A model generated the notes under the pieces. It did not search any database and was not told where the DNA came from. It was given only the letters and a program-made list of their open reading frames with translations. Below, piece after piece: positions 6,001 through 62,725 of a DNA stretch of 64,000 nt. Source of the DNA: Apostichopus japonicus (lineage: Eukaryota > Echinodermata > Holothuroidea > Aspidochirotida > Stichopodidae); the NCBI RefSeq assembly GCF_037975245.1, contig NC_092564.1, positions 1,195,984-1,259,983 on the forward strand, written 5' to 3'. A program made the position numbers and the translations under genes. The number at the start of each line of letters is the position of its first letter. The stretch's first letter is position 1.

Positions 6001-6572
6001 ACATTCCAATAAATGTGTAATTTGTACAAAAGAAATGATTTCCACACGAAAAGAAAAAGAACATGGTTGTCAAAAATGACAATTGCCATTCATGTACCAT
6101 TTGACTAGAGAGTAGGACAACTCTTGATAATGATACTGTAGCATGTCAGAGAGCTCCGTTATTATTAATGACTCTTTTTGAGAATGTGAGGCTATAATAT
6201 TGTCAGCAATGAAGCTCAATTATGAAACCAATACATCCACATTGTCAGGTATTGTTATCTGAATGGATACTCTTTCATGTATGCTTACATCATTTCCAGC
6301 TTAACATTAATAATTAATGTAACAAAGCTCGGACCACCTGGTGATGTCGCACATCAATTTCCTGAGCCGAACTTCCTAACTAGTCTAACGGAAGCAGTAC
6401 AGTAACTGTATTTTCTTTGAAAACCTTTAAGTGACCACCCTGTGACAAACGTCAATGTCAGATAAAATTATATCTTGCAGACAAAGTCAGACATTGGATT
6501 CACAGAGCAACACACCCAAATCATCTTAAAAGCCTTAAACGTACCGCAAACCCCACCCAGCCTTAAACTTAC
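1..6572. other. Non-coding stretch, probably intron or flank of the ENTREP-like gene
   Basis: AT-rich sequence with no coding exon I can support. The ENTREP/FAM189-like gene runs leftward from 6815, so this is most likely its first intron, but I could not find the expected second exon (transmembrane segment 2) here. Two open stretches stand out weakly. One is 3084-3395 (-), about 100 codons behind a good acceptor-like tattttcag. The other is 5300-5530 (+), with a hydrophobic tail. Neither resembles a family I know. A tandem repeat lies at 4721-5050. Confidence 0.5.
4721..5050 (+). repeat. Minisatellite, 39-48 bp units
   Basis: About eight copies of a unit built on ggcagtgtatggaatgtaaa followed by a variable catacactacacagt block. 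Short and long unit versions alternate. The array is open in one + frame for about 115 codons with a GSVWNVNI repeat. This follows from unit lengths near multiples of three and is not evidence of a gene. Confidence 0.85.
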
Positions 6573-6597
6573 CGCAAACCCTGCCCAGCAAGGACTA
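6542..6597 (-). repeat. 28-bp tandem duplication spanning the splice donor
   Basis: On the + strand taccgcaaacc starts at both 6542 and 6570, each followed by similar cccagc sequence. Read on the minus strand, both copies contain GCG|GT. The first donor is GTAAGT (exon end 6573) and the second GTACGT (exon end 6545). Using the second would add 28 nt and shift the frame. Confidence 0.7.
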
Positions 6598-17145: not shown

Positions 17146-17235
17146 TTACTGCAGAGTATTTAACTCTTGCTTCTTTTGAATATCTTCAAAAAGTCCTGCC
17201 ATCTGCTCGGCTGTGTCTCCAAGTAAATTATAAAC
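17146..17235 (-). CDS. MYCBPAP: MYCBPAP last exon 22 (aa 876-904 and stop)
   Basis: Acceptor gtttcag. It encodes VYNLLGDTAEQMAGLFEDIQ then KKQELNTLQ and TAA. It completes the C-terminal amphipathic helix; vertebrate proteins also end in such a helix. Confidence 0.9.
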   Translation of the reverse strand, partial: VYNLLGDTAEQMAGLFEDIQKKQELNTLQ

Positions 17236-20200
17236 CTGAAACAAAACAGAAGATATTACTTAACACAAGTAACCTAAACCTAGCTAGACATTATTGAACA
17301 AGAAAATAGAACTTTGGTGAATCTTAGTATTGGCATCCAAATATAAACATATAATGTTCTTTACATGTATGTATCAACAAAGAAATATCAGAGAATACAG
17401 ATAAATTAGTTTCAACGGTCAGCATTAATGTAATAGGTGACTATTTCAGGGATTTCAGGAAATATGAATTAATCAGTAGCAATTGAAAGAATGGAAGTAT
17501 AAAGAAACTACCTGACCATTTTTGGTGATTCTGAACCATCTTAAAGTGCTAAAAGGTCAACATAGGTATGATGCAGTTTGTCTCTTTCCTACTTTGAAAA
17601 GCGCTTTGAAACGCTGTATTAAGCGCTATATAAGTGTAATTTATTATTTATTATTATTATTATTATGCAGTTAAGAAAACATTGTTGATAGTCTCTCACC
17701 ATAATGTAAAGTTTATTCCTGTACTTGGCATCAAGGACTGGATCTCCAGTCTCTGATGGAGGAGGATAGGGCCGGACTGGCATCCGCTCCACCTTCCTGT
17801 CTCCTCTTGGAGTTTTTCTTTCCCTCAACGGTTTTGGACTAGATGTCTCTCGACTCTTTCCTGCTCTGGATTTATCTTGTTTACTCTTTGGTCTGTCTTT
17901 GTCTTTGTCCTGGAGGTAAGAAGTTTCAAAGTAAAGAGAGGCAAATTTGATCTGCTATCAGCAGAACATTGTTTAAGACTTTTGAGAACAAGCTAGATCA
18001 CACCTATGAGAATAACAAGTTTGTTTGATATCTTGCAAAGTGGACTACTGGTTGGTAGGTACCATGAAACTAAAGTACAGAGATGTTAGCTCTGGTAGAT
18101 GGTAGAAGCTGATTTATAGGACGATGGGGAAAATAAAGAATAGCATTATTTACTTCCTCAGATGTAAGTAAGCTTCCTATAATACTTGAGCTACCATTTA
18201 GAATAATGTAATACCTGTATTACTTGAAACTCTGTCATCCACATCCTATATTGTCTGGACCTAACATCTACACAATAATAATTGTGTAAAACTGTACAAG
18301 TTTCATATTAGTACAGATATCTAAGCTCTTGTAGGTGAGTAGGAGGACCATAGACTAGTAGGAGGACCATAGACTACTATAGGTAATACTTGAGCTATCA
18401 CTCTGAACAATGTAATACCTGTATTATCTGAAACTCTGTCATCCACATCCTATATTGTCTGGACCTAACATCTACACAATAATAATTGTGTAAAACTGTA
18501 CAAGTTTCATATTAGTACAGATATCTAAGCTCTTGTAGGTGAGTAGGAGGACCATAGACTAGTAGGAAGACCATAGACTAGTAGGAGGACCATAGACTAC
18601 TATAGGTAATACTTGAGCTATCACTCTGAACAATGTAATACCTGTATTATCTGAAACTCTGTCTTCAACATCCTATATTGTCTGATCCTAACATCTACAC
18701 AATAATAATTGTGTAAAACTGTACAAGTTTCATATTAGTACAGATATCTAAGCTCTTGTAGGTGAGTAGGAGGACCATAGACTAGTAGGAGGACCATAGA
18801 CTACTATAGGTAATACTTGAGCTATCACTCTGAACAATGTAATACCTGTATTATCTGAAACTCTGTCATCCACATCCTATATTGTCTGATCCTAACATCT
18901 ACACAATAATAATTGTGTAAAACTGTACAAGTTTCATATTAGTGCAGATATCTAAGCTCTTGTAGGTGAGTAGGAGGACCATAGACTAGTAGGAGGACCA
19001 TAGACTACTATAGGTAATACTTGAGCTATCACTCTGAACAATGTAATACCTGTATTATCTGAAACTCTGTCTTCAACATCCTATATTGTCTGGACCTAAC
19101 ATCTACACATTAATAATTGTGTAAAACTTTCATATTATTTCAGCAAATTGTAATAACACAAATGAAGATAAATGTAACTCTCAAAGACCTGTAAAGTTGT
19201 TACAAAACACAATGTGCATGACAATATAAAACTACACTATTGGCTCCATTATCCAGGTTACTTTGTTATCCAGACAACCTCCGGTCTTGAATAATGTCCA
19301 AATAATCCAGAGTTTGACACTATTATGGCGTCCAAATTTGCTTAATTTTGCAAGTATTTGCATTTTTCTATTCTGTATTATTAGTTCTGTATTATTGATG
19401 AGGGAACGGTGTCCCATTTGCAGTAAGATACTTTCTAATCACACATTTAATCTTGACTGATATCTCTTAGCTTGGTGGGTAAAATTCCTTTAAAATATCA
19501 CATCTATTAAGAGGTTGCAGTCTGACTTACATCCTTCTTGCCTTTCTTGCCATCCTTCTTATCTTTCTTATCATCATCTTTGCCTTTTTTGTTCTTCTTG
19601 GGGTCGCCTGTTAGAGAGTTATAAATATAATTATGAATGAATGTCATGATAACAAAGATCAGTTATGTCATCATGCCAGCTTTGGAATTTCATTCTTCAA
19701 ATGGAAAAGGGGTTATGTTTCCTAAGATGTAATATAAATACCTCCTTATCTGACAGAGCTACACAAATATACCCATAGTTATAACAATTTTCTGTGCTTT
19801 TACTTGATGATTCCTTAAGACCATCCTGTGCTAGTGACCTCTGAAATTATAAGTAACTATTTGTTAGAGTGATTTATCAACCCAGAATGCAAAGGTCATA
19901 ACATTGCTTACATCTAGAATGTTTTATTTTATGCATAAAATCCCATTAGCAGCCTCCACACATCCCCCTATTCCCCCACCCCTTTCCCCTACTTTTCCCA
20001 AATTGTACTGTTTAATCCTATTCAAGTCTCCATTGATCTGAAATGTATACTCCAGAAATAGTCTTTTGTAAATTAGAACCCCTTTATACTGTAAAATCCT
20101 TCCTGACAGTGTACACCACTGAGTCCCACAAGAACCCATGGATTTCTTCTTCTTCTTTAATGAATGTGAGACATACCTGGTGAGTCTGCACTGTGTCTAT

Positions 20201-23200
20201 CCAAGGCAGGTTCTTTAGTAAGCATGCAAAAGATTATGAGATAGAGGGTTAACAGGAACTAGCAGTCAAAATAATTCAATATGAAAACTAAATGACAGAT
20301 AAATAAGGAATTCCTAATGACAAGATACAAACATGCACTGTTAACAGAGAATATCCAGACTCAACATGTGAGAGGAAAATCATCAATCGTTTCTGTAATT
20401 GCAGATTCCATATTTTGTTTAACTTTTCACAAAATGTGCAATTTGTTTTTGTTTTGTACTGTAGAATTTCTATCCATCTGCAAGCTCATTTAGCATGTAT
20501 AAACACATCACATTAAGCTCATTCAGCATGGATAAACACATCACATTAAGCTCATTCAGCATGGATAAACACACCACATTAAGCTCATTCAGCATGGATA
20601 AACACATCACATTAGGATCATCACATTAAGCTCATTTAGCATGTATAAACACATCACATTAGGATCATCACATTAAGCTCATTTAGCATGGATGAACATA
20701 TCACATTAGGATTATCACATTAAGCTCATTTAGCATGTATAAACACATCACATTAAGCTCATTCAGCATGGATTTACACACCACATTAAGCTCATTCAGC
20801 ATGGATAAACACACCACATTAAGCTCATTCAGCATGGATAAACACATCACATTAGGATCATCACATTAAGCTCATTTAGCATGTATATACACATCACATT
20901 AAGCTCATTCAGCATGGATTTACACACCACATTAAGCTCATTCAGCATGGATAAACACATCACATTACGCTTATTTAGCATGTCTAAACACATCATACTT
21001 TCTAGCCATTGATACAGTGCTTGTTCCATTTAGACACATAATTAAGCAAATATTTGTAAGGCGTGAATGAGATCCAGGCTACAACAAAGTCTCTTTATCA
21101 TGGTATCAGGGATTGCAGTATAAATATATCTGTGTGCAGATTGAATATTTGGTATTATCCTCATGCAACATTCTCTTTACTTTAGAGTTAAAAATGGAAA
21201 GAATAAGAAAACCTTTAATGAGTTTCATTTATTGTGATACTTGCCACATAGTTTACAACATACAGATATATACTAGTGATAGTTCTAAAAACTAAGCCTA
21301 ACCACTTATTCTACCACAGTAAAGAGTAACTTCTTTCTGATATGCAAGGATTATACAGCAGTTGACTTTTAAAGCAGAGAAAATAGAGTTAATGGTGTTT
21401 CATCACAGAGGAAAAAGTGGTTGTTCTTTGTAAACAATGGTAGGGATCATTAATGTTAAATGATTATGAAAGGGGTGAAAATAATATAATTGTTAAAATA
21501 AATGAAGGTTCGTTACAATCAAGTGCTTATTAATGAGATAATTGATACTTACTCTTCTCCTTGGGAGGCCCTGTGGAGCCAACATGAAATGAGTAAGAGG
21601 ATAGTGGAATGAGTGACATGTTATGATTTAAACATACATTCAAAATGAATAATCTGTTATGACTTAAATATGCATTCAAAATGAATTATCTGTTATGACT
21701 TAAACATGCAGTCAAAATGAATTATCTGTTGTGGCTTAAATATGCATAGAAAAACCCTTCTTAATGAATGATCTCAATATTTACAACTTTTGGTTTAAAA
21801 AGGCACAAAATTAAAAAGATTCTTACTATTACTTGGACTGATGTCATGAGATGCGTACTATATAACTCATTATACATGAAGCTCCTTAGCAAGTTAAACA
21901 TACATGGCACACCTGTATATATAGTACTGTAGTGTGAAGGACAACACAATTAACTTGATGAGGGTTCATGGCTTCATTCTTCACTCTACACCACATTGAC
22001 CAACTAGTCCCTCAAATCAAACCTTTATCATCCATCAACAATTCAACTTTTCATGGTTGGTCAATCGTGTTTTCTTTTAACTAAAAAGGACCATAGCAAT
22101 GAGTTTTTATACATGATGTCCACATTTAAACATAAGATACTGTATTCATTACATCTACTTACCACCTCTCAAGGTATCGTTTGCTGATAGGACTGAAAAT
22201 TAAACAAAGAAATTCAAGATTAAACTTTGTCAGTAGGTATCGTCTTCACCCTGTCTCGCACCAAAGGGCAATTATTGAAATATCTGTAGTTCTTGAGTCC
22301 TACTAACATATCTACTTAATCCTGGTTAAAGATTCCCCTCAAAAAGGAGAGAGGTAGTATTTAGAAAACTTAACAGAACATTTTGGAGAAATCTATCTAA
22401 TTGTTGGATAATCAGATTGAACCGAAGGAAAGACAACTCCTAGAATTTAAATTACCACAAGGTATGGTTATAGAAACAATGAAGGTCATTTAAAAGTTAT
22501 GTAAATAAGTTTGCAAAATATAACAGTGGCAAAAACATCCAGCCATTTAAAGATTACTGAATGAATATGAAACCAAGATGAATTATCAAGAACGATCCCA
22601 AAGGTGTAAAGCAGGTTGTTGAGTTGACTATTAATTGCATTCTTATTGCAAAAAGTACTCCAAAGGTTTTGGAAAATTGCTGAACCAAAGACAAGAAGCT
22701 TCTTTCAACTAACACTATGCATTTTCTGTGATAATAGATTCACATTATTAATGCCTCTACTGTTTTCTTTGGTTTAGAGTAGTAAAATGATTAAAGATCA
22801 TTACCATTGATTATTCAACTCACAGAATGGTTCAGAAAGCATAATTTTCAATTTACAGAAAAAACAAACTGTTTTCTGTTTAGAGTATGGTGGGTGAGGA
22901 TTACTTACTATCAGGCATTGATGGATAGGTTGGATTTTTCTCTGGGAATCCAAGAGATATTCTTAAAGATTCAGCCTCTGCATCTAACATATCTGCTGCT
23001 TCCATCATTAACTGGTACCTGAACGAGTAACCAATCAAACAGGTAAGCAAGATATCAAAGCAATAGGCAAAGAAAATATATGAGAACTAGCCAATACAGA
23101 TCTTACATAAAAGGATTCTCTTGCATTTTTCAATGCAGAAAGACATTAAGACAATACTATTAATATCTGCAGGACACCTAGAATAAAGATGCTTGGATTG

Positions 23201-26200
23201 ACTAAATCAAAGTTGATGTTTTACATTGACTCTGTTCAGTTCATATGTTTCCAAAGATAGACCTTTTTTAGGAATGCTGGACTTTATTCAGTCTCCTGTA
23301 AAGCTTGGTTGGAATGGAAGTCTGACTGAAAGACCTCTCTTTTTCATTATCAAGGGGGATTGTTACTATTCTCATTTTTCCTTAGTATTAACAGTCTCCA
23401 ATCTTCATAATGCAATGACTTTCAGTTCCTACACAAAAGACTGGTCAGTGCTTTTGGTATCCAAACATAAATTATTCATTCTTTGTGAAAGAACAAAGTT
23501 TGGACTGTAAATTGTTGTTATGATAAGATGATGTTGGCTATGTGTGACTACTAAACTCACCCTAATCTATACTGTTCTTGCTGTACAGGCATCAGTGGAG
23601 GGAATGAGAGAGATGCCACCGATGAGTTTAGACGGGTCAGTAGTTCTTCTCGCCTTTCCTCATCCTCTAGACCCAGCAACTCCTAAGAAGTAAAAATCAG
23701 AACAGATTATATTAGAACTGATTCAGGATCAACTCTATGTTGGCATAAAAGTGCTATGGTAAAGTGGATAAGGGCGGTGACATTAGAAGCAATGAAATGT
23801 AGCATCTGGGAGGTTGTGGATTTGACCCCTAAAGAGGATTTACATCATTGAGTAATCCACAGTTTTCCCATCTGAAATGGTCTCCAAAATGAGACTGTAA
23901 TGTGATAGCCACCTTAAATGAGTTGTAAGTAGTAAGCCATTGGGCTTCTCTCTCACATACCCATGTGGCTGCATAGCATCGTAAGTTACTGCTTTCCAGG
24001 TCCATATTATATTAGTGTAAAGCATGATGGCTTGGCAACGTAAAATAACTGCTTTCCAGGTCCATATTATATTAGTATAAAGCACGGCTTGCAACAGGCT
24101 ACATATGATGATATCTCTGACATATGCTACTTACCTCTTTCAAGCCTTGCACAGAAAAGTTCCAAGGTGGCACCTCTAAATCGTCCTCATCATCATACAG
24201 ATCTTTCCAAAGTTCCTTCAAATTAGTGACAACCTCATTAGAGTAGTGCATCTGTTAATGAATGAAAACCTCATTAGAGAAGTGCATCTGTTAATGAATG
24301 ACAACCTCATTAGAGTAGTGCATCTGTTAATGAATGACAACCTCATTAGAGAAGTGCAACAAAACCTTTTCAAACTGAAAAGACAACAACCTATTGCTAT
24401 GATGGTGGTCATTTGATACAGAGATAAAAAACAATGCACTTCATTGGCTTCATTATTCAATTTCTATTTCAGGTGATGTAGAAAGGTCGACAACTTTCTA
24501 ATTTGTGTCTTGATTAGCACCGACGTCAAACAGCTTTCTCATAAAGCAGTCTTAACATCTGTTGTAATCACTAACTACTCACTAACATGTAATATTCGTT
24601 TGGCATCTGAAACTACCAATCATACACTATTTCGCTGTTGAAATGTTGGAAATATAGGTATGCCATCAGACTGAACATATGTAAGATGTGTTTCACACTG
24701 TAGCTATACAGTAAACCTGTTACACATACGCATCTTCTTGCACTATTTCTTAGTTCAGAAACACATAGTTTAAATGATGGTACTGCATGACAAGTATTAC
24801 ATATGAAAGTTCTTAATCCTAAAAGAGAGGTTGAAATGTTCAAAATAAAATATGTTTACAAAACAGTTTAAACGGTTTACATCCTCCTTTTAGAGGCTTA
24901 CATCCTCCTTTTAGAGGTTTACATCCTGATTTTAGAGGTTTACATCCTCCTTTAAGAGGTTTACATCCTCCTTTTAGAGGTTTACATTCTCCTTTTAGAG
25001 GTTTACATCCTCCTACCTGAGGGTTTTCTTTCTCAAACTGTTCTTCTTCAGTTATGTAGGCATCCACTGGAGAGCGAGCCCTCTGAGGGGTGCGGATACC
25101 GTCAACAATCTCATCAAGAACCCTCCTGACAGCCACCTCTGCTTGTCTGTGATAAAGCTCTTGCTGTTGATATCATATAATAATGAAATAATCTGATCAT
25201 GATCTATGGGTTATAGTTACCTCTCATAAACCCATCTCAAAATAAGCATTGGAATAAATACGATGGAGACCTCATCATCATATCCTATTTTACAATTGAC
25301 CTGATGTTTAAACATGAAAAGTGACCTTACATAGAGAAATTAAAAAAATTTTGTTTAGATGAAACCAAATGATTCTAACCTCAATGTCATTTCTCTGTTT
25401 CTTGGTTTTATCTTCTTGCAGTGCAATACCTCTCAACGTCACTTGCAGAGTCGCCCCTCCACAAAGGGTAGGTTTCGTATCCAGCTGCCAGGTCTCTGAG
25501 AAGATGCCAGGATTCGGTGACTTGAAGATGAACGGAAACTGGAGCTTGTCACCTGGCAACAACACTCCACTGCTAGTGTTGAAGTAAAACCGCTGTACTT
25601 TGCTGTTGCTCCTTGCTGCTTCAAATGGATTCACCTTGGGGATTTTCTGTCAAAAGTAAACCCAGAATGCAAGCATAGTTCTGCATCTTTAGGAATTCAA
25701 CTGCTCTAGGTTACTATTGCAATATGAACTTGTTTATCATAGTGAAAATCATCAGTTGAGAATCTCCAAAAGAACATCAAATAACATAAATTTGATTTCA
25801 ATGGTTTGTAAAGCTGTAAATACCATAGAAATGCCACGCATTATTTATTAAAACCAAACACATATAAATACTATATTTGTCTGTGAATCATGTGTGCTGT
25901 AAATAGGAAGCTTCTTAGGTTAACTAGCCTTTGAAAACATTCCCAAATTAACTGTTAAAACCTAGCACTACTAGATTTAACTAAATAAATGGAAAATTTA
26001 TCAAAGATGAAGATGATTTTATGAGACTTTCGTCTTCATCTATGTAATCTACCTTCCAGTCGTAGTGTAGGCTGGTTGTACCATCATTCACCAACTCTAA
26101 ATAAGCAGTGGTTCTTTCCCCAGCAAATGATTCAAAGGTAACTCTTGCTCCACTAGCTACTTGACCCTTCCCACTGCAGCTGTCCCCAGTCCATCCAGCA

Positions 26201-29200
26201 CGGAAGCCTTGGAAAACCAGGCAAGGACCAGAAACAGGGCCCTCCATGATCTCTGCTTCCTTTTCGACTGAAGGTGCACTTTTATGTGAGAAAACAGATA
26301 AACAAAGTGAATACCTTACGAGAGGTTGGAAAATGAAACTTGTTGTTTCTTGCATGATTCTGTGTATTATTTCCAATCCATAGTAATCCTGTAACGTATG
26401 CTTTATTGTTTATGATAGAAACATTAACAATATATGACATGATATGTAAGGTTCTTGTTCTAAACAAAGGCAACGATTCATCTTGTAAGGTTGTACGTTG
26501 GGAAGATATTTCTTTATAGAGTACCTTCATATAGGCCCAAACTTAACTTACATGTTTTCCTGGTTTTCAAGAGAGTCCATCTCTCTGGTCTCATGGGTCC
26601 TCTTCAGGGATGATTTTGTTGCAGTAGACGGCTTGTGAGGTTTGTTGGTCCCAGAAACATGCAGAGAATCAAGATCCTATATTAAAATTGGAATTAAACA
26701 AAATGTTGAATTGATAAAAGCATTTAGTACAAAAGGTTGAATAGGTAAAAGCATTTAGTACAAAAAGTTTTGGTTAGGCTTATTCCTTCAGTAGATCCAA
26801 TTAATATTAAGTTTAATATCTCTAAATCTAACAAGTTTCAAAACAAAAGAAACTGATCAAATTGACAATTTAGCTCACTGGTTTAAATGGATCTAGTTCC
26901 TCCATAACTGCAATTAGTTGATCTCTTCTCTGTTTGAGGTACTGAGACTGGTGCCATGGGTAGTAGACAGGGCTGTTACGACCCTCTCCAACTGGTAAAC
27001 CTTTTGAAAGCAACACACAGACAAAGTGAAAGTTTGAAACAAATTTAAATATCCTCTCACAATGCATTAACTAAAGTAAGCAATTTCTCTCGATTTATTC
27101 CAAGAGTGTTTCAGTGATTAAAGTTTACTCTCCAATTTTGCTGGAAACAACCAAATTTTGCAGATGATTTTTTCTTTTTTGAAAGAGAAAATAATGATGA
27201 AATATTTATATTGGGTTGTGTTATAAATTTACAGATATGGTAAAATGTTATATAAAAACAATTCAACCCTTCCAACTATTCTTGGGTAAATAGTCACAGC
27301 TTGTTACCATTTCATGGTAGCTCCAAAACTGCCAGAATACTGTCTTCCTAAAAATACTGACACTTTAGAATTGTCAGCACGAGGAACAGAAAACAATAAA
27401 TTTGAAAGATTTGTCCAACTCACAGGACTGCATAAATTTAAAGTGACAGTACACGGTTCAACCTTCAGGTGAACTGCACATTGACTCACAATAGTAAGCA
27501 AGCAAACAACTGTATCAAGAGTATCCTTGAATAGAATTGTATTGAGTGGTTAGGTCATATTATATACCTCTTACTGGTATGTTGAAGCACCATTGGGATT
27601 CAGTCAAGTATTGATTTATTCAATCCCATATCACTGTTAATTTCAAACTAACTTGCTTGAAAGCCAGTCACTATTTACTAACCCATTTCTTCTTTGATGA
27701 TGTTTGGATTCCTGATGTGTTCAACAGGAGGTGCATAGCCCCTCTCAGTCTGTGATAATGTCATACTAAAAGAGAACAAAACAAAAAACATCATTGAACA
27801 TCTTTCATCAGATTTTATGCCTTCAGTAATAGAGTGAACTCTAGTATTAAAAGTAGAAACTTTCATACTATTACAACAGCTATTGCAGCATGAGAACATA
27901 ACCACCTTTAAAACTAACCACTGAAGCAGACATGTAGCCAAAGGGGTGGGAAGGAGGGAACAGTGGTGTTTAGAGGCTAAGTTCCCTTGAGGAAGCATGA
28001 AGAAGCAACACTGGGGTGGGAGAGGAGGGAACAGTGAGGTTTAGACTTTAGAGGCAAAGTTCCCTTGAGGCGGGGTGGGTGAAACAGCAAACTTGAGGCA
28101 GTGACAGCTTGGAGGGTCCTTGGGGGTGCAGTGCAACAATGTTACCAGTTTGAAGGCTGAGGTAGATATGAGTGCATATGTATAGGAGACAGGTAAGAGA
28201 GGAGTGAAGTAAATTATATAAATTGGAATGATAATAGAATGACTAAAGGATTTAATGAGAATAGTGACTTCAACAGAACCCCTCTTTGACACCCGAGAAA
28301 ATAAAAATACTCACTGAATTCCAGAAAGATCATTCCCAATTCTCTCTTGTTGTTTCCAAAATTCACTACCAACACGATCTGTGTTCATAAAGCAAAGATG
28401 AATAATTTCTACTTGTATGGGTGATCCAAAATGGGAGGAAACTTGAACACAATATTAAGGAATGTAAGGGAAAGAAACATCTATCATACACACAATGAAT
28501 AATCATAAATTACACTTTATAAAGTGATGAATAACAAAACAAGGTACTTGTTGAAATCATACTTCAAATATAAAAAAAATCTTCTTGATGACTGGTCAAG
28601 AAATAAATATACCCACCCTTCAAAGAGCACACAACTATTATCTTTGTTACCAGTCTGTTGTTTCTGTATCCATTTTTATTTACTTACATCCTTTGCCATA
28701 ATCCATTGCTGGTATGGTTCGATCTATCAAGTACCATTTTATTTACTTACATCCTTTGCCATAATCCATTGCTGGTATGGTTCGATCTATCAAGTACCAT
28801 TTTATTTACTTACATCCTTTGCCATAATCCATTGCTGGTATGGTTCGATCTATCAAGTACCATTTTCATTTACTTACATCCTTTGCCATAATCCATTGCT
28901 GGTATGGTTCGATCTATCAAGTACCATTTTATTTACTTACATCCTTTGCCATAATCCATTGCTGGTATGGTTCGATCTATCAAGTACCATTTTATTTACT
29001 TACATCCTTTGCCATAATCCATTGCTGGTATGGTTCGATCTATCAAGTACCATTTTATTTACTTACATCCTTTGCCATAATCCATTGCTGGTATGGTTCG
29101 ATCTATCAAGTACCATTTTCATTTACTTACATCCTTTGCCATAATCCACTGCTGGTATGGTTCGATCTATCAAGTACCTCTGCTCCTGGGTCTTCCTGAA

Positions 29201-32200
29201 ATCACTGGCCTGGTTCATAACCAAGGTATCAACTGGTTTCTGAAGTAGCTCTGCAGAAATTAAAGAAGAAAGAGATAATCCCCTGACTATAGTTATAGAC
29301 GTTCAGCAATAGTTAATTTGCTGCTACTGGGTAAATTACCTACAGATAACGCTGCTTCTAGGTATAGCAATAATCATTTCAATGAAAACATGAAGCTCTG
29401 TCTTTTGTTGCATCAGAAGGGGTGGGGACATAGAGTAGCATTAGGGTGGTTGTAGGGGTGGGGTTGGGGAAGAGTTGGGTAGGGTGGGAGTTGGGATGGT
29501 GGCTGGAATAGAGGTGATAAATTTCTTTCACCAAACAGTCAGTTAAATAAATTTGTGACCTTAACAAAACAAAAAACAGATGGAAAACATTCAGGCTTAA
29601 AAAACAGTGTGTCATCTGCTCTTTCAGTGGGTGCTGTAGCATGAATTATTAATCACTAACTTGATATGTATTCGTAGCATGACTTATTAATCACTAACTT
29701 GATATGTATCCATAGAATGACTTATTAATCACTAACTGATATGTATCCGTAGAATGACTTATTAATCACTATCTTGATATGTATCCATAGCATGACTTTT
29801 CAATACTAACTTGATATGTACCCATCACATGACTTATCAATCACTAATTTTATATGTATCCATAGCATGACTTATTAATCACTAACTTGATATGTATTTT
29901 TAGCATGACTTATTAATCACTAACTTGACAGTATCCATTGCATGACTTATTAATCACTAACTTGATATGTATTCTTAGCATGACTTATTAATACTAACTT
30001 GATATGTATTCTAAGCATGACTTATTAATCACTAATTTGATATGTATCCATAGCATGACTTATTAATACTAACTTGATATGTATTCTAAGCATGACTTAT
30101 TAATACTAACTTGATATGTATCCGTCGCATGACTTATTAATCACCTACTTGATATGTATCCGTCGCATGACTTATTAATCACTTACTGGTATGTATTCAT
30201 AGCATGACTTATTAATCACTAACTTGATATGTATTCATAGCATGACTTATTAATCACTAACTTGATATGTATCCATAGCATGACTTATTAATACTAACTT
30301 GATATGTATTCTAAGCATGACTTATTAATACTAACTTGATATGTATCCGTCGCATGACTTATTAATCACCTACTTGATATGTATCCGTCGCATGACTTAT
30401 TAATCACTTACTTGATATGTATTCATAGCATGACTTATTAATCACTAACTTGATATGTATCCGTCGCATGACTTATTAATCACTAACTTGATATGTATCG
30501 TAGCATGACATATTAATCACTAACTTGATATGTATCGTAGCATGACTTATTCATAACTAACTTTAATGTATCATTAGCATGACTTATTAATCACTAACTT
30601 GATATGTATCCGTAGCATGACTTATTAATACTAACTTGATATGTATTCTAAGCATGACTTATTAATACTAACTTGATATGTATCCGTCGCATGACTTATT
30701 AATCACCTACTTGATATGTATCCGTCGCATGACTTATTAATCACTTACTGGTATGTATTCATAGCATGACTTATTAATCACTAACTTGATATGTATTCAT
30801 AGCATGACTTATTAATCACTAACTTGATATGTATCCATAGCATGACTTATTAATACTAACTTGATATGTATTCTAAGCATGACTTATTAATACTAACTTG
30901 ATATGTATCCGTCGCATGACTTATTAATCACCTACTTGATATGTATCCGTCGCATGACTTATTAATCACTTACTTGATATGTATTCATAGCATGACTTAT
31001 TAATCACTAACTTGATATGTATCCGTCGCATGACTTATTAATCACTAACTTGATATGTATCGTAGCATGACATAGTAATCACTAACTTGATATGTATCGT
31101 AGCATGACTTATTCATAACTTTAATGTATCCGTCGCATGACTTATTAATCACTAACTTGATATGTATCCCTGCTGTCGTTTCCGATCTATCATCTTCCTC
31201 TGCCAGTTGATTAAAGCTTTGTTTTCATCAAGAAATGAGTCTCTGGGAGCTGGTTGGGAAGTCTGGTCCTTTTGATGACTCTTCACACTTGGTGTCTGTG
31301 GTCTTGATTGGATCCCAGGAGGAATCTAAGAAAAGCAAATGTAAAAACATTAACAAATACTTCTTCAGTCTCATTACTGTTGAACAATGAGCAATGAAGA
31401 TAATTTTAGGAAATTGTTTTAATGAGCCCAAATTCAGGAAATGACAGCAAATATAAGTTTCCAGTCTAATTACTGAGGTCAACAACATAGTAACATTGTA
31501 GGGTCACATCACCTTGGTCAACAATCAAGGAGAAGGAAGTTGGGTCTACATTAATGTTACTGATCTCTAAAGATTAGCCACCCTTTCTACACGATAAGTC
31601 CGTGCAAAATAGTCATATAAAGTTTGAAGAAGCCTCAGCAAATGAAAAATGTAAAACAAAGTGTCACATTACTTGCATAATATAACATTTAATGTTCATG
31701 GGTATTAGAACTGTTACTGATGTTCCATGAAATATGTACAATTGGAAAAGAATAATACGGCAAAGGGAGATAAATGGAAGATTTGTTCTTACTGTAACAT
31801 GGCCTTGTTGTGCAGCTTCTTGAGTAAATTCCTGCATTGTGCCCAGAATGCTATGCGGTATAATGTTACCGCTAGCATCGAACCTTGGCCCACTAATACC
31901 TGTGAAATAAACAGAAAACTAAATGAAAGGACATGTCTGGAAAAGTAAGGAAAGTTGAAGAGAGAAATAATATCATCAAATGTATTTGACAGTGATGCTT
32001 CTTTGAAAAGAGGAAACTCTATGTTTTTAAGAATGGGATGGAAGGTAAGGAAGGGGAGGAGGTATTTACTCATAAAACCAGTAATTCTGCATTGATAGGC
32101 AGTTTAGCACTCTTTTTCTTTGCAAATAGATCTATAATAAATCTTCATTTTCTTGTCAACTGGAAATAGCTCACACTGGCTCCATTTTGAAAATTATACA

Positions 32201-35035
32201 GAGAGCTGTAGTGTAATCTACTGAAAATATATTATTTATACCCAAAGAGGATGGTAATGATGATGATAAGAGGGGAGGAGGGAGGGGGGGTCTACATAGA
32301 TTGCCTTAGTTACCAGCCTGTATTCACTGATATCATCACAAACCAGCTTCATCTATCATGAAAGCATATAATAGTTACTGATGTCTATCCAAAGAAGGAC
32401 AGCATCTTGAGTTAAAAGCAATATTTCTATCTTTAAAAAATCTCAACCTAAGCCCTTCCTGAAGAAGTTAATGAGGTCGCAGAATACTCACCGGAGAAAT
32501 CATCACTTTTGATAGGAGCATGAGGTGGAGCGGGCTTAGCAATCAAGACAGTCTTCAATGGTGGTTTATCTAATTCAGATTGAGGCTTTAACTTGCGGAC
32601 TACCACTCTTTTATTCTTGTCTGGTCCAGCCGACTTCTCGGGAGGTTTTGGAGCGTGCAACTGTAGAGACACGAGTGGGTTTATTACAAGCAAACACGTC
32701 TTCTAATTTGTATGGGTACTTACAGTATGTGTCTCAATGATAACACTCACTGATAACAAAGGTACATAGAACCTCAGATTGTATGGTCACAGACTACCTC
32801 AACTCATAACTTTCACAATATTTGAGGAATGAGAGAAAATGGTTCCTTTGCTTTCGCAGAAGTTGCTTATTAACAATGAAGAGCCAGTTAATAACATGCA
32901 GGATTTGCATTGAAGATTCATACATGGGGTATTCAGTCATCATAACATCTTCTGTATTGAAGTTATGACTGAGGAGAATATACTCTAAAGCGACTTTTTG
33001 CTTTTGCTTGAAACTTTTTGGAAACATTACCAAATATAAGCAATTTTACTCAAGATTAAATGGCAAGTGACCAAACTGAGACAATCTGCTCTATATTTTT
33101 ACCAAATGTTTAGTTGGTATTTAATGATTACATTCCATTCTCTAAAAGCAAGTCAGAAATCTGCAGTATTCTTTACTCTTTTCTTAATATTTAGAATCAA
33201 GTATGGACAGTATTAATGCAAAACCTGCTTTAGTATGTTCTATTAAGACCACTTCAAATACCTTGACATTTAATTATCAGAGCCAAGAGCATGCTACAGC
33301 ATTGTGTTCTTAGTTTCTATTTTCCAAGAGTATGACAACTAAATTTGGCATAGCCCACAAAACCAAACTTGAACAAGATATACTTTTCATTGTTAGTTCA
33401 CAATACTACTTTCATAGGGATGTAAAGCATGCTCACCATTTCCCATAATACAACTTCTCTGTTAACTTATTTGTTGAACATCATAAAAATACCTTTGTAA
33501 GATCATTTTGTTGGATGGCCAAAGCCTGGATGTCGTCACCATCCAACACTTGTTTACTGGGTGGTACAACCTCCTCCTCTAACAGCTGAGACTGTGTGGG
33601 ACTTACTGGTTTCTCTGGGGTACCATCTCTTTTATTACGACTTGTTGACTTTGATTTGTCTATTAAAAGAAAAAAAGAAACACATTAATTTGGTAAACAT
33701 GTTGAAAACTATGTATTCAAATAACTAACTTATTGTATAAAGGAAGATATCATGTGGAAAAGTGAGAATGCTGAAAGGCTAAGCTACAGTATATGGACAG
33801 TCAGATCATCCATTTTGTCATCTTCTTACACACAAGCAGCATAGCATGGTTCCCTCACTTTTCAACAAATGAAATCCCAGATTTTCTTAAGTCCAAAACA
33901 TGGTTCGTAGTTTACTATATAACACACTACTAGGTTAACTTAAGTAGGCCAAACCGCTAATAAACCGCAAATAATGATCATATGTGGCGAGGGGGATCTT
34001 CCAAGAGCAATTAATCTCACACATGACATGCCGTAGCCTTAGCTTTTCAGTTTTCACCAGTTTGTTGAATGCCGTAAACTTATCTCAAATTTCCAGCGAC
34101 CTTGCTTGAGTAATTCTCACTATAATGCAATGTTAGATCTGTGCCTTAGCTTAAATGCATGAAGGCTAGGACAGAAAGTACAAATCACAGGGGAGTATAA
34201 ATCCATAATTGACCACTCCGGACAAAATATTCTTCTTCTTCTTCTTTTTTTGCAAAAAAAACAAGAAGTGTTCATATGAGAATCTTCCTCACTTTTCTGT
34301 ACTGAGAGTTCAAACTTCAAGGACTTTCATGAAACCACAAAAAAAAAAGGTTTTTCCTTTTTCCTACCTTTTCCCAAAATTTCCCATTTTCCTGACAGCT
34401 TGGGAATAATTGGTTTTGAGTTGATCTTTCAACTTTTCTATTGATCCATTAATATCATCTGAAATATGTGTCTTTTTGTTTGAAAAAATGTACAAAACAG
34501 AGAAGCATACCAAGTAGTGATATTAAAATACGACTTGTGTTGAAAGTAATGGCTAGCTGTCACAGCTTTGCTTGTCCAGAGAAAGCAGTTGGAGAGTCTG
34601 TTTGGAACGCAAACATATGAAAGGAATACAAACATCCTAAAGTAACTCAGTATAAACAGGACCTCATAAAGAACTTAATGTAGGCACTGATAATCTCCCA
34701 CTTACACTTGACCGTTATACTTATCTATGACCATTACACTTATCTATGACTAGCAACTCTACAAGCTTTGACATTATGTTGTGACGGGATGAAGGTGGGT
34801 GGCAGGGGGGGTGGGGAGGGGTGGGGAGAGGTGGGGAAGTTACATTGCTGCAGAGAAAGTGATACTAACATGAGCCAATTAAATGGACCATAGTGAACCC
34901 AGAGGTCAGTCTTTTGGAGGACCGACTAACAGATGTAGAATGTTCGGAACTGATGGAGTTACGAGAAGAGGATCTCTTTCTGAGAGAAGATGTAGGTGAA
35001 CCTTGGCGGCTCTTTCTCTCTCTTGGCGATGACAT
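17146..35035 (-). CDS. MYCBPAP: MYCBP-associated protein, complete 22-exon gene, 904 aa
   Basis: Exons in transcription order: 35035-34870, 33659-33493, 32660-32492, 31899-31793, 31325-31157, 29250-29131, 28378-28315, 27765-27683, 27000-26879, 26676-26552, 26278-26053, 25646-25380, 25136-25017, 24251-24135, 23682-23561, 23018-22909, 22192-22163, 21570-21553, 20212-20177, 19607-19531, 17909-17700, 17235-17146. The lengths sum to 2715 nt and every phase matches, giving one uninterrupted frame close to the vertebrate length (about 950 aa). Landmarks recognised include DIQALAI (exon 2), GPRFDASGNIIPHSILG (exon 4), VGSEFWKQQERIGNDLSGI (exon 7), ARVTFESFAGERTTAYLELV (exon 11), RFYFNTSSGVLLPGDKLQFP (exon 12) and GIRTP..SPV (exon 13). 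In vertebrates the protein binds MYCBP/AMY-1 and is linked to sperm development and cilia. Exons 11-12 look like the immunoglobulin-like beta folds of cilium proteins (inference). The start has an in-frame TGA nine codons upstream and A at -3. Confidence 0.92.
17585..17666. repeat. Short interspersed-element-like tail with (TTA)n
   Basis: The sequence aagcgctttgaaacgctg, then aagcgctatataagtgtaat, is followed by a TTA/ATT microsatellite. This aagcgcta-tataa-...-(tta)n arrangement is the common 3' end of several animal SINE/LINE families. It lies in MYCBPAP intron 21, only 34 bp downstream of the exon 21 donor. A weaker relative may be at about 38960. Confidence 0.45.
17700..17909 (-). CDS. 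MYCBPAP: MYCBPAP exon 21 (aa 806-875)
   Basis: Acceptor acctccag, donor GTGAGA. It encodes a basic DKDKDRPKSK stretch, then VERMPVRPYPPPSETGDPVL and KYRNKLYIM, the start of the C-terminal conserved helix. Confidence 0.88.
18178..19137. repeat. 204-bp tandem repeat, about five copies, MYCBPAP intron 20
   Basis: The landmark atacctgtatta recurs at 18211, 18415, 18638, 18842 and 19046. Spacing is 204 bp except one 223-bp unit, which has an extra 19-bp copy of the internal accatagactagtaggagg subrepeat. Each unit contains a small hairpin, acacaataataattgtgt. Copies are nearly identical apart from the first. Confidence 0.9.
19531..19607 (-). CDS. MYCBPAP: MYCBPAP exon 20, Lys/Asp-rich (aa 780-805)
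   Basis: Acceptor tctaacag, donor GTAAGT. Encodes almost only Lys, Asp and Gly (PKKNKKGKDDDKKDKKDGKK), a charged and probably disordered linker. Confidence 0.82.
20177..20212 (-). CDS. MYCBPAP: MYCBPAP exon 19, 36-nt microexon (aa 768-779)
   Basis: Acceptor tactaaag, donor GTATGT. Phase 1-1, encoding KPALDRHSADSP. Like exons 17 and 18 it is a symmetrical cassette candidate. Confidence 0.65.
20485..20990. repeat. 33-bp minisatellite, MYCBPAP intron 18
   Basis: About 14 copies of a unit based on aagctcattcagcatggata plus aacacatcacatt. Some copies carry an extra 14-bp aggatcatcacatt insert that itself recurs, giving a compound array. Confidence 0.9.
21553..21570 (-). CDS. MYCBPAP: MYCBPAP exon 18, 18-nt microexon (aa 762-767)
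   Basis: Acceptor ctccacag, donor GTAAGT. Phase 1-1 with six codons (GPPKEK). Supported by strong splice sites and exact phase only. Confidence 0.65.
21612..21750. repeat. 36-bp minisatellite close to the exon 18 acceptor
   Basis: About four copies of tgttatgacttaaatatgca plus ttcaaaatgaattatc. It lies in intron 17, starting about 40 bp upstream of microexon 18. Confidence 0.8.
22163..22192 (-). CDS. MYCBPAP: MYCBPAP exon 17, 30-nt microexon (aa 752-761)
   Basis: Acceptor attttcag, donor GTAAGT. Length divisible by three and phase 1-1, so it can be skipped without a frame change. Encodes ILSANDTLRG. Confidence 0.75.
22909..23018 (-). CDS. MYCBPAP: MYCBPAP exon 16 (aa 715-751)
   Basis: Acceptor cgttcag, donor GTAAGT. 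It encodes YQLMMEAADMLDAEAESLRI then GFPEKNPTYPSMPD. Helical segment followed by a Pro-rich turn. Confidence 0.88.
23561..23682 (-). CDS. MYCBPAP: MYCBPAP exon 15 (aa 675-714)
   Basis: Acceptor acttcttag, donor GTGAGT. It encodes ELLGLEDEERREELLTRLNS then a hydrophobic/Pro segment SLSFPPLMP. Probably helical. Confidence 0.9.
23970..24090. repeat. 60-bp direct duplication, MYCBPAP intron 14
   Basis: Two copies exactly 60 bp apart containing ctgctttccaggtccatatt, differing at a few bases. Confidence 0.8.
24135..24251 (-). CDS. MYCBPAP: MYCBPAP exon 14 (aa 636-674)
   Basis: Acceptor cattaacag, donor GTAAGT. It encodes MHYSNEVVTNLKELWKDLYD, an acidic DDEDD run and PPWNFSVQGLKE. The acceptor and first exon bases are copied three times upstream. 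Only the nearest copy avoids an in-frame TAA. Confidence 0.9.
24218..24352. repeat. 36-bp array copying the exon 14 acceptor
   Basis: Read on the minus strand, the unit is a cattcattaacag acceptor followed by ATGCACTACTCTAATGAGGT, the start of exon 14. There are three full acceptors and a partial fourth unit. Tac/ttc variants alternate between units. Confidence 0.85.
24878..25014. repeat. 21-bp in-frame array at the start of MYCBPAP intron 13
   Basis: Seven units of tttacatcctccttttagagg on the + strand, beginning about 2 bp inside the intron 13 donor. Because the unit is 21 bp, the exon 13 frame continues through it as a (GCKPLKG)n heptapeptide until a stop at 24840. Confidence 0.88.
25017..25136 (-). 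CDS. MYCBPAP: MYCBPAP exon 13 (aa 596-635)
   Basis: It encodes VAVRRVLDEIVDGIRTPQ and SPVDAYITEEEQFEKENPQ. The acceptor is chosen by phase: AGAG|GTGGCT at 25136 fits phase 0, while the nearer cacag gives a wrong frame. The donor is CAG|GTAGGAGG. Beyond it the frame stays open for 59 codons through a 21-bp tandem array. Confidence 0.87.
25380..25646 (-). CDS. MYCBPAP: MYCBPAP exon 12 (aa 507-595)
   Basis: The longest exon. Acceptor ttttgacag, donor GTTAGA. It encodes VQRFYFNTSSGVLLPGDK, FPFIFKSPNPGIFSETWQL and GGATLQVTLRGIAL, a second beta-rich block. The GIFSE.W..D..P.L.GGA pattern is diagnostic for the family. Confidence 0.93.
26053..26278 (-). CDS. MYCBPAP: MYCBPAP exon 11 (aa 431-506)
   Basis: Acceptor cataaaag, donor GTAGAT. 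It encodes PCLVFQGFRAGWTGDSCSGK, then ARVTFESFAGERTTAYLELV and NDGTTSLHYDWK. The pattern of alternating hydrophobics and 'NDGT' turn resembles an Ig-like/ASH-type beta domain (inference). The exon match to MYCBPAP is strong. Confidence 0.92.
26552..26676 (-). CDS. MYCBPAP: MYCBPAP exon 10 (aa 390-430)
   Basis: Acceptor aatatag, donor GTAAGT. It encodes a polar linker, DLDSLHVSGTNKPHKPST then KRTHETREMDS. Low conservation is expected here. It is supported by both splice sites and by phase. Confidence 0.85.
26879..27000 (-). CDS. MYCBPAP: MYCBPAP exon 9 (aa 349-389)
   Basis: Acceptor ttcaaaag, donor GTGAGC. It encodes SPVYYPWHQSQYLKQRRDQL then a short acidic helix ending DPFKP. The junction codon is Gly split after its first base, matching the end of exon 8. 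Confidence 0.9.
27683..27765 (-). CDS. MYCBPAP: MYCBPAP exon 8 (aa 321-348)
   Basis: Acceptor tcttttag, donor GTTAGT. It encodes HMTLSQTERGYAPPVEHIRN then PNIIKEEM, continuing the conserved central region. Confidence 0.9.
27930..28080. repeat. Imperfect ~90-bp duplication, MYCBPAP intron 7
   Basis: Two copies of a purine-rich block ending ggcaaagttcccttgagg or aggctaagttcccttgagg, each with ggtgggaaggagggaacagtg-like sequence. Confidence 0.7.
28315..28378 (-). CDS. MYCBPAP: MYCBPAP exon 7 (aa 300-320)
   Basis: Acceptor gaacacag, donor GTGAGT. It encodes YRVGSEFWKQQERIGNDLSG, a strongly family-typical segment. Confidence 0.92.
28668..29178. repeat. 63/64-bp array copying the exon 6 donor
   Basis: Eight units, with tacttacatc at 28681, 28744, 28807, 28871, 28934, 28997, 29060 and 29124. 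The last unit is the real exon 6 end. Each minus-strand unit contains about 47 bases of exon 6, then GGAT|GTAAGTAAAT. Units are 63 bp except two of 64 bp with an extra C. It fills about 60% of intron 6. Confidence 0.93.
29131..29250 (-). CDS. MYCBPAP: MYCBPAP exon 6 (aa 260-299)
   Basis: Acceptor tttctgcag, donor GTAAGT. It encodes KLLQKPVDTLVMNQASDFRK followed by TQEQRYLIDRTIP. About 47 bases of its 3' end plus the donor are tandemly copied in intron 6. The exon copy reads GTG (Val) where array copies have ATG, which separates it from the array. Confidence 0.88.
29640..31156. repeat. ~38-bp satellite copying the exon 5 donor, with 562-bp higher-order repeat
   Basis: About 40 units of catgacttattaatcactaa plus cttgatatgtatccgtag. 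On the minus strand each reads GGATACATATCAA|GTTAGT, the exon 5 3' end and its donor. The variant cacctacttg occurs at 30142, 30367, 30704 and 30929, spaced 225, 337 and 225 bp, so a 562-bp block is duplicated. The array occupies about 80% of intron 5. Confidence 0.92.
31157..31325 (-). CDS. MYCBPAP: MYCBPAP exon 5 (aa 204-259)
   Basis: Acceptor tttcttag, donor GTTAGT. It encodes a Gln/Pro/Ser linker then DENKALINWQRKMIDRKRQQ. The 3' junction is the template of the large minisatellite at 29640-31156: its last 13 exon bases and donor recur throughout that array. Confidence 0.9.
31793..31899 (-). CDS. MYCBPAP: MYCBPAP exon 4 (aa 168-203)
   Basis: Acceptor tttcacag, donor GTAAGA. It encodes the well-conserved GPRFDASGNIIPHSILGTMQ segment, one of the best family signatures in the gene. 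Confidence 0.92.
32492..32660 (-). CDS. MYCBPAP: MYCBPAP exon 3 (aa 112-167)
   Basis: Acceptor ctctacag, donor GTGAGT. It encodes LHAPKPPEK, then NKRVVVRKLKPQ and a Pro-rich tail. The VVVRK segment is family-typical. Confidence 0.9.
33493..33659 (-). CDS. MYCBPAP: MYCBPAP exon 2 (aa 56-111)
   Basis: Acceptor tttaatag, donor GTATTT. It carries the DGDDIQALAIQQNDLTK block typical of the family N-terminal region, after a Pro/Ser/Glu-rich linker. Confidence 0.9.
34870..35035 (-). CDS. MYCBPAP: MYCBPAP coding exon 1 (aa 1-55)
   Basis: Begins at ATG 35035 and ends at a GTTAGT donor with one base of codon 56. It encodes a Ser/Arg-rich, probably disordered N-terminus starting MSSPRERKSRQGSP. An unrelated + strand frame overlaps it and is a shadow. 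Confidence 0.8.
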
Positions 35036-55500: not shown

Positions 55501-58500
55501 ATGTAGCCATCTAAGATATGAAGAAGCAATTATTAAACTCTTTGCTCTAGTTGCATGGATTGACTAGCATCTGTCACTTATCCTACCTTCTATAGAACTG
55601 AGTGAGCTCTTTAATACTTGGTTTAGCCTCACATAGTCAGATCTAATGTTGAAGAGTTTAATTATGTTGTTTAACACACTTTTCTTGTTTTGTATAGGTT
55701 CCAGTTAGTTCTTGAGTCACAGCCAGTTTTGTCTGATTGTTTACCCATTGTATCCTCATCTTTTGTTGACTGGCTTGGTTTTGGCCTCATCGCTCTCGGA
55801 CTTATTCTTGTCATTACCAGCTTCTTTGCTCTTGGCTTCTTTGGTACCTATTTAGGTAAAGCTGATTTTCTCGGAATTTTTCATAAAAGTGAAGACAAAT
55901 TCGTATATATATTACTGAGAGAACACAGCAGAGAAAGTCTTAGAATGTGAAGTCAGTTGATAGGACTGCACACAAAGTATGAAGCTAGTACTTACTAAAA
56001 TTCATTACAATGTGACAGTATGGTAAGTCATACTTCAAAATAGTGAATTCTTGTATTAAACCAGCGCATTAAAGAACAGGTTGAAAATTCCAAGCCAATA
56101 GTGAAAAGGAGTGATGTTGAAAGTTTCTACGGTGACACCAAGCCTGTATGAAAAGTTAAAAATAATTTGTAGGGGAGGGAGAGGGAGAGGGGAAGGGAGA
56201 GAGGGAGTGAGTGTCTCCCTTAAGTGTCCGGGACATAATATTCATTTAGTTGGTATGCTACTTTAGAAATTGTAGAGGTTCATATAAAGTGAAAAGGAGT
56301 GATGTTGAAAGTTTCTACGGTGACACCAAGCCTGTATGTAAAGTTAAAAATCATTGGTAGGAAAGGGAGAGGGGGAGAGAGGGAGGACATCTTTCACTCC
56401 CTTAAGTGTCTGGGTCATAATATTCATTTAGTTGGTATGCTACTTTAGAAATTGCAGAGGTTCATATAAAGGTGAATAGGCTTATTTGGAAATTACATAC
56501 AGACCAGCCCGATCAGGTTCAATCAGCCTGATCAGATCAAATCAGCCTGATCAGATTCGATCGGTCTGATCAGATATGATTGGCTTGATAAATAAATGAT
56601 CATGATTGGAATTCTGGTTCAATATCAAGTCTATGAAGTTCAATATAAAGTCTTTGAAGTTCAGGCCACGTTTACGTAAGAGAACAGAGCAAGTTAGCTG
56701 CCAGTGTATGTCATGTCTGAATGTTTTATGTGAGTAAGTCAAAGAAAAGTTTTTAAATTTGATTTGTTTGCTTAAAGGAAAATCCAAAAAAGGCAGGAAT
56801 TCCCCATGGGGGGGGGGAGGGGATCTGACCTGGATCATTGAGGCTGGGGGAGGGGGTAGGAGGAGGGGAATAATTCATACTTTACCTGGTATTCCCCTTC
56901 AAATATTCTGTTGTAGAGAGTGAGATTATTCAATGACTCAGTGTCTTGTCTACTTTCATATTTCAGGAGATTATTTTGGGATCTTGATGGAAGCTAAAGT
57001 GACCTGCTTCCCTTTTAATGTGATGGCACACCCAATGTACTACGGATCATTCCTGGAGAACTTTGGCACCGCTATATGGTTAGTGATTAACAGAATATAT
57101 ATTGTTGCAATCAGATGTGAAAACTGAGAAGGATATCACAAATATAAATTATGTACATATCTCAAAGATATTATTTCCTAGAACGGACCTCAGGAATACA
57201 AGTCCACCTACTGTACTCTACCATTTGAGTTATCTACCCTTTATTAGCCTCATCTTGCCTGCTTGCTAAACAAGTTAATAACTGTGGGCACCTGTCAGAA
57301 TCTACTGCACTCTACCCTCTATTAACTAGAATGCCTCATCTTGCCTGCTAAACAATTTAATAACTGAGGACACCTGTCAGAATCTACTGCACTCTACCCA
57401 CTATTAGCTAGGATGCCTCATCTTGCCTGCTAAACAATTTAATAACTGAGGGCACCTGTCAGAATCTACTGCACTCTACCCACTATTAGCTAGGATGCCT
57501 CATCTTGCCTGCTAAACAATTTAATAACTGAGGGCACCTTTCAGAATCTACTGCACTCTACCCACTATTAGCTAGGATGCCTCATCTTGCCTGCTAAACA
57601 ATTTAATAACTGAGGGCACCTTTTAGAATCTACTGCACTCTACCCACTATTAGCTAGGATGCCTCATCTTGCCTGCTAAACAATTTAATAACTGAGGACA
57701 CCTGTCAGAATCTACTGCACTCTACCCACTATTAGCTAGGATGCCTCATCTTGCCTGCTAAACAATTTAATAACTGAGGGCACCTGTCAGAATCTACTGC
57801 ACTCTACCCACTATTAGCTAGGATGCCTCATCTTGCCTGCTAAACAATTTAATAACTGAGGGCACCTGTCAGAATCTACTGCACTCTACCCACTATTAGC
57901 TAGGATGCCTCATCTTGCCTGCTAAACAATTTAATAACTGAGGACACCTGTCAGAATCTACTGCACTCTACCCACTATTAGCTAGGATGCCTCATCTTGC
58001 CTGCTAAACAATTTAATAACTGAGGGCACCTGTCAGAATCTACTGCACTCTACCCACTATTAGCTAGGATGCCTCATCTTGCCTGCTAAACAATTTAATA
58101 ACTGAGGGCACCTGTCAGAATCTACTGCACTCTACCCACTATTAGCTAGGATGCCTCATCTTGCCTGCTAAACAATTTAATAACTGAGGGCACCTGTCAG
58201 AATCTACTGCACTCTACCCACTATTAGCTAGGATGCCTTATCTTGCCTGCTAAACAATTTAATAACTGTGGGCACCTTTCAGAATCTACTGCACTCTATC
58301 CACTATTAGCTAGGATGCCTCATCTTGCCTGCTAAACAATTTAATAACTGAGGGCACCTTTCAGAATCTACTGCACTCTACCCACTATTAGCTAGGATGC
58401 CTAATATCTTGCCTGCTAAACAATTTAATAACTGTGGGCACCTTTCAGAATCTACTGCACTCTACCCACTATTAGGCAGTATGCCTCATCTTGCCTGCTA

Positions 58501-62049: not shown

Positions 62050-62725
62050 AATGCCATTCTCCCTAAAGGAAGGTATAAACATGGCCATCCTCCCCTAAGA
62101 GAGGCATAAATGAGGCCATCCTCCTTGAGGGTAAAGATATGCATGACCATCCTTCCTGAGTGGAGGTATAACCATGGCCATCCTCTCTGAGTGGAGGTTT
62201 AAACATCCTCTCTAAGTGGAGGTTTAACCATCCTCTCTGAGTAGAGGTCTAACCATGGCCATCATCTCTAAGTGGAGGTTTAGCCATCCTCTCTGAGTAG
62301 AGGTCTAACCATGGCCATCCTCTCTGAGTGGAGGTTTAACCATCCTCTCTGAGTAGAGGTCTAACCATGGCCATCCTCTCTGAGTGGAGGTTTAACCATC
62401 CTCTCTAAGTGGAGGTTTAACCATCCTCTCTGAGTAGAGGTCTAACCATGGCCATCCTCTCTGAGTGGAGGTTTAACCATCCTCGCTGAGTAGAGGTCTA
62501 ACCATGGCCATCCTCTCTGAGTGGAGGTTTAACCATCCTCTCTAAGTGGAGGTTTAACCATCCTCTCTGAGTAGAGGTCTAACCATGGCCATCCTCTCTG
62601 AGTGGAGGTTTAACCATCCTCTCTGAGTAGAGGTCTAACCATGGCCATCCTCTCTGAGTGGGGGTTTAACCATCCTCTCTGAGTAGAGGTTTAGCCATCC
62701 TCTCTGAGTAGAGGTCTAACCATGG
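62050..62725. repeat. ~56-bp compound minisatellite built of 28-bp half-units
   Basis: Alternating half-units atcctctctgagtggaggtt (then taacc) and atcctctctgagtagaggtc (then taaccatggcc). The aaccatggcc landmark recurs at 62251, 62308 and 62363. The left end is more diverged. Confidence 0.9.

Follow-up and report, generated by a model that had tools for sequence, protein, structure and literature searches.

Intron 5 of the MYCBPAP gene in the sea cucumber Apostichopus japonicus opens with a long ladder of tandemly repeated splice donors. Which of these donors ends exon 5, how did the ladder arise, and does it serve a function? We addressed these questions in a stretch of 64,000 nucleotides containing the gene (the window) and in a sample of loci from elsewhere in the genome.

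MYCBPAP was modelled as 21 coding exons with AG/GT ends, which join into a single open frame of 857 codons (Table 1). The product aligned with the MYCBP-associated protein chain 9ijj_v (E 7e-126), and no gap interrupts the alignment where exon 5 meets exon 6 (GYISKLLQKP against EALSKHLKKP) or where exon 13 meets exon 14 (NPQMHY against NPRLHY). The gene and the end of exon 5 had been named in the original prediction, and the open frame and the ungapped 5/6 junction bear both out. The exon 6/7 joint coincides with a 3-residue gap in the alignment. The C-terminal part of the product aligned weakly, and the small exons 17-19 are therefore based mainly on the frame and the splice signals. The model omits exon 1 and a possible exon 20, whose ends could not be fixed, and the name exon 5 is valid under a model whose exon 1 is not fixed. 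In this frame, exons 5 and 6 each end at their first donor, and exon 14 begins at its last acceptor. Rfam gave no match over the window at gathering score.

Exon 5 ends inside an array that TRF described as 38-bp x 41.0 (89% matches, score 2270). As the exon runs from 31325 to 31157 on the minus strand, the array covers both its final 13 bases, GGATACATATCAA, and the GTTAGT donor. Segmentation gave 41 units when the real exon end was counted as the first, in agreement with the predicted minisatellite of about 40 copies, each reproducing this 13-base exon end and its donor. The units are 38 (23 units), 37 (16), 36 (1) or 32 (1) bp long and have the junction form CAA/GTTAGT. The donor GT is kept in 38 of the 41 units and lost in three; the retained donors read GTTAGT (29), GTAAGT (4), GTAGGT (4) and GTTATG (1). 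The copies at the edge have diverged, as the last 11 units account for 11 of the 17 single-copy unit types (counted by eye). Comparison of the array with itself gave a best lag of 562 bp, at which about 544 bp are duplicated with 3 mismatches, from a mismatch list read by hand; the block delimited by the lag analysis itself is 583 bp at 97.4%. The expected 562-bp higher-order duplication was thus recovered. When the end of exon 5 was compared with the whole genome, all 21 of the DNA matches listed lay inside exon 5 and its array, these counts being lower bounds. The assembly is probably the one described as built from PacBio HiFi reads (PMC10344927), which makes an invented array of 1.5 kb unlikely.

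Because the end of exon 5 is in phase 1, readthrough gives AGT TAG, a stop ending 5 nt beyond the exon. Use of any later donor in the array would therefore bring an immediate TAG stop, just as had been foreseen. The description of the donors as near-identical held only in part: the GT is kept in nearly all units, but the sites differ in their predicted pairing with U1. The exon 5 donor has the weakest U1 pairing of the 20 MYCBPAP donors (-2.5 kcal/mol, the rest ranging from -4.5 to -12.3). Compared with this first donor, 18 of the 38 GT copies pair better, 18 equally (the first included) and 2 worse, and eight inner donors reach -6.1 to -6.4 kcal/mol. With the first donor the weakest and eight inner ones much stronger, it is not self-evident that the first site is used. 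If it is used, as the protein requires, position beside the exon body would have to outweigh strength. We also considered whether the decoys are hidden by RNA structure, and rejected this for the first 11 units, to which the prediction was confined: among their 11 donors, the first was not set apart from the later ones (0.41 unpaired; range 0.27-0.61). Variation affects 3 and 2 of the 41 units in the two GT columns (mean over columns, 3.2), which are neither more nor less conserved than the rest.

The original prediction treated this array as a lone case and overlooked others like it at splice sites of MYCBPAP and of kinesin and myosin genes. In MYCBPAP, the end of exon 6 is repeated with all eight GAT/GTAAGT donor sites retained, and readthrough of the exon meets an in-frame stop that ends 8 nt beyond it. 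At exon 14 it is the acceptor that is repeated; of its three copies, both upstream ones would run into a stop, which the last alone avoids. A further array starts just inside the exon 13 donor. Its units, judged by eye, are apparently derived from the boundary with the donor motif gone from the copies, and its sequence runs for 177 nt without an in-frame stop. Intron 13 is thus flanked by two different arrays (within 24227-25014), of which one covers its acceptor and the other starts immediately behind its donor. The window also holds a short duplication over the probable donor of a CD20-like gene, whose identity comes from a weak Pfam CD20 match under its cut-off. Inside MYCBPAP exon 21 there is a 21-bp x 3.0 lysine-rich coding repeat. 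Large tandem arrays occur as well deep in MYCBPAP introns (18180-19128, 204-bp unit; 20482-20995, 33-bp unit) and in unannotated sequence of the window (57260-58709, 82-bp unit; 62146-62731, about 137-bp unit).

Elsewhere in the genome, we sampled the 66 best-scoring loci of three families, each family chosen before its loci were screened for repeats: the best 6 of 26 tektin, 30 of 126 kinesin and 30 of 70 myosin matches. These loci form 56 separate blocks with 198,485 bases and 93 matched exons. Seven further arrays spanning splice sites were found, five at matched exon ends (5 of 186) and two at other exons, which were identified as kinesin and myosin sequence on visual inspection. The six tektin loci had no array on any matched exon end. 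A 21-bp x 23.7 array in a kinesin intron (L038, 1750-2248) was not counted as a splice-site array, its TRF start lying about 45 nt inside the intron; its TTTTAGGTTACTTGAAGCATA-like units resemble a fused acceptor and donor. Short repeats near a donor but not on it were also set aside (L024, L028 and L037). At L019 (426-1172), array units on the plus strand carry AG/GTAAGC donor-like motifs, while the kinesin exon lies on the minus strand; these arrays are possibly a splice-site array of another gene.

Table 1. Gene model and splice-site arrays in the window, with the arrays found in the sampled loci
Feature	Positions	Strand	Basis
MYCBPAP coding exons E2-E23, 21 exons (unproven exon 20 omitted)	17146..33659	-	frame, protein alignment, Pfam PF14646 matches
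MYCBPAP exon 5, 169 nt, phase 1, end ...GGATACATATCAA	31157..31325	-	open frame, AG/GT ends, alignment across junction
MYCBPAP exon 6, 120 nt	29131..29250	-	frame and protein alignment
MYCBPAP exon 13, donor CAG/GTAGGA	25017..25163	-	frame and protein alignment
MYCBPAP exon 14	24135..24251	-	frame and protein alignment
Exon 5 donor array, 41 units of 38 bp; in a typical unit, GTTAGT donor flanked by 13 nt of exon 5 and a further 19 nt of intron	29636..31169	-	TRF, unit segmentation
Higher-order block, first copy (step 562 bp)	about 30577..31120	-	lag analysis
Higher-order block, second copy	about 30015..30558	-	lag analysis
Exon 6 donor array, 63-bp unit x8; unit with the last 48 nt of exon 6, the GTAAGT donor and the beginning of the intron	28674..29178	-	TRF, donor copies, overlap
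Exon 14 acceptor array, 36-bp x 3.7, repeating CATTAACAG/ATGCAC	24227..24358	-	TRF; alternative acceptors and peptides; 25 nt overlap
Exon 13 array, 21-bp x 6.7, start 2 nt inside intron 13	24874..25014	-	TRF, sequence
CD20-like gene, 28-bp x 2.1 duplication over probable donor GTTTGCG/GTAAGT	6531..6589	-	TRF, sequence
L044, donor array, 113 bp x1.9; second copy without GT			
L029, acceptor array, 168 bp x1.9			
L046, donor array, 53 bp x17.4; only about 7 nt of true exon, because the match extends 2 nt beyond the donor			
L071, donor array, unit about 163 bp, 5 donor copies			
L051, acceptor array, 124 bp x3.0			
L032, donor array, 158 bp x5.0; exon outside the match list			
L056, donor array, 47 bp x25.4; exon outside the match list			

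Are splice sites preferred by these arrays? We compared the counts with random placement of the arrays, 76 in the sample after merging (93 exons) and 9 in MYCBPAP, omitting the two crossings at exons off the match list (L032 and L056); the rates are rough because the matched ends only approximate exon ends. Boundary crossings numbered 5 against 8.31 expected in the sample, and 3 against 1.96 in MYCBPAP (P 0.31). No exon was swallowed whole in either set, against 4.46 expected in the sample (P 0.004) and 3.84 in MYCBPAP (P 0.003). Arrays inside exons were likewise missing from the sample (0 seen vs. 3.85 expected, P 0.017), and MYCBPAP had one, the exon 21 repeat, against 0.36 expected. The arrays thus mostly spare coding sequence and strike splice sites at about the rate of random placement.

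We consider it quite likely that the exon 5 array is a minisatellite of the kind called a mirage in amphioxus, formed by neutral tandem duplication and tolerated since the donor touching the exon is the one used. A short tandem duplication may by chance have straddled the boundary of exon 5 and intron 5, and the array would then have expanded within the intron via slippage or unequal exchange, including one duplication of a 562-bp block. Splicing would tolerate the array because the donor in contact with the exon body is used, and the later copies would sit in the intron, their use yielding only transcripts with an immediate stop. Neutral duplication of this kind, indifferent to splice sites, could also have produced the arrays at exon 6, at exon 14 and in other genes. 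The stops 5 nt past exon 5 and 8 nt past exon 6, and those reached from both upstream exon 14 acceptors, argue for this reading, as do the open frame with its ungapped joints, the placement counts, the variation of the GT columns and the undisturbed splicing reported from amphioxus (PMC3087553, PMC3902484); the weakness of the first exon 5 donor, the predicted structure that does not single this donor out, the gap at the 6/7 joint and the stop-free exon 13 array argue against it. It is hardly conceivable that the whole picture comes from a wrong exon model or an assembly artefact. Both the model and the array do derive from assembly sequence, but the frame is open, the protein aligns over the junctions, seven similar cases occur elsewhere in the genome and the assembly is reported as a HiFi one (PMC10344927).

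Other readings give the repeated donors a role or the splice sites a special susceptibility. Regulated unproductive splicing, in which the stronger inner GTAAGT or GTAGGT donors are used, the stop transcripts degraded and the level of MYCBPAP tuned by array length, is suggested by the eight of 41 donors whose U1 pairing greatly exceeds that of the first and by the immediacy of the stop. However, the GT sites drift as other columns do, and like arrays are found in unrelated genes roughly as often as chance predicts, so that we regard this mechanism as unlikely. The array might instead act as a landing platform for U1, dozens of weak donors raising its local binding and thereby aiding the weak first donor or blocking early polyadenylation. 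That the weakest of 20 native donors bears the highest-copy array of the gene fits such a role, though as a single coincidence; other repeated donors are less weak (-7.0 kcal/mol at exon 6 and -11.1 at L071), acceptors are repeated too, and the platform seems very unlikely. A functional ladder, in which weak donors jointly bind U1, rescue the weakest donor or protect the intron, with its length tuning expression between individuals, appears decidedly improbable. It is also very doubtful that splice sites are hot spots that start tandem duplication, for example through transcription-linked DNA structures. MYCBPAP has three repeated splice sites and one array starting just inside a donor, as a hot spot would predict, but the crossings do not surpass random placement in the sample or in the gene, and this reading is rejected for now.

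On the mirage reading, natural genes can apparently accommodate decoy splice sites in long ladders, and the arrays show a simple route for intron growth. If 5 of 186 is representative, thousands of splice sites in this genome would, by extrapolation, be accompanied by tandem decoys, mirages would extend from lancelets to echinoderms, and the arrays would offer a natural experiment on how the splicing machinery settles on a single donor when dozens of others are equal or stronger. In a search of the literature by title and abstract, with most subscription journals outside its range, no report of splice-boundary repeats from a sea cucumber or any other echinoderm came to notice. As far as that literature goes, what is new is the phylum, how large the array is, the occurrence of several in a single gene and their frequency in the sample.

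Multiple splice donors are reportedly also present in a minisatellite of the human interferon-induced gene 6-16 (IFI6/G1P3), said to have been described in Nucleic Acids Res in 1995. Its unit is said to be about 12 nt, much shorter than that of MYCBPAP; in both cases a minisatellite offers many donors, without an evolutionary relation between them. Tandem duplication at splice-competent sequence is likewise shared with the intron gain reported to follow duplication of coding sequence that contains a proto-splice site (e.g. PMC2891723). That process makes new introns, whereas in MYCBPAP existing introns grow.

The closest likeness is to amphioxus, where repeats spanning exon-intron boundaries were named mirages and splicing was reported to be undisturbed (PMC3087553, PMC3902484). 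These papers describe them in Adh3, the globins BflGb6 and BflGb9 and TnC, with PGBD5 compared with them, as minisatellite-like repeats at donors or acceptors, with units of tens to about 160 bp and splice signals kept in many copies. The MYCBPAP array has the sequence features of mirages, and it is on sequence that the two are likened. Both are tandem repeats across an exon-intron boundary, and the MYCBPAP units of 38, 63 and 36 bp lie within the reported range; of the sampled arrays, those with units of 113, 124 and 168 bp fall between or above the lengths quoted (10-72 and 150-160 bp; PMC3087553). Splice signals are kept (38 of 41 at exon 5, 8 of 8 at exon 6, three acceptor copies at exon 14), and inner copies are homogenised, here in the block repeated at a 562-bp step, while edge copies have diverged. 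Mirages were suggested to be a cephalochordate phenomenon (PMC3087553), but the host here is an echinoderm. Amphioxus as the host was considered and rejected on tektin and mitochondrial evidence: among the chains listed, tektin-2-like exons reached 522 bits with one of 8snb (sea urchin) and no more than 323 with any other, and the 16,099-bp mitochondrial contig places 16S rRNA ahead of cox1 on one strand and a cluster of tRNA genes behind 12S, an arrangement of the echinoid/holothuroid type. A tektin-3-like exon, by contrast, matched 9cpc best (205 bits) and gave only 127 bits with 8snb, a difference that was attributed to paralogy. In contrast to the amphioxus mirages, the exon 5 array reaches 41 copies and contains a 562-bp higher-order duplication, MYCBPAP has arrays at three of its splice sites, and seven more lie in the sampled loci.
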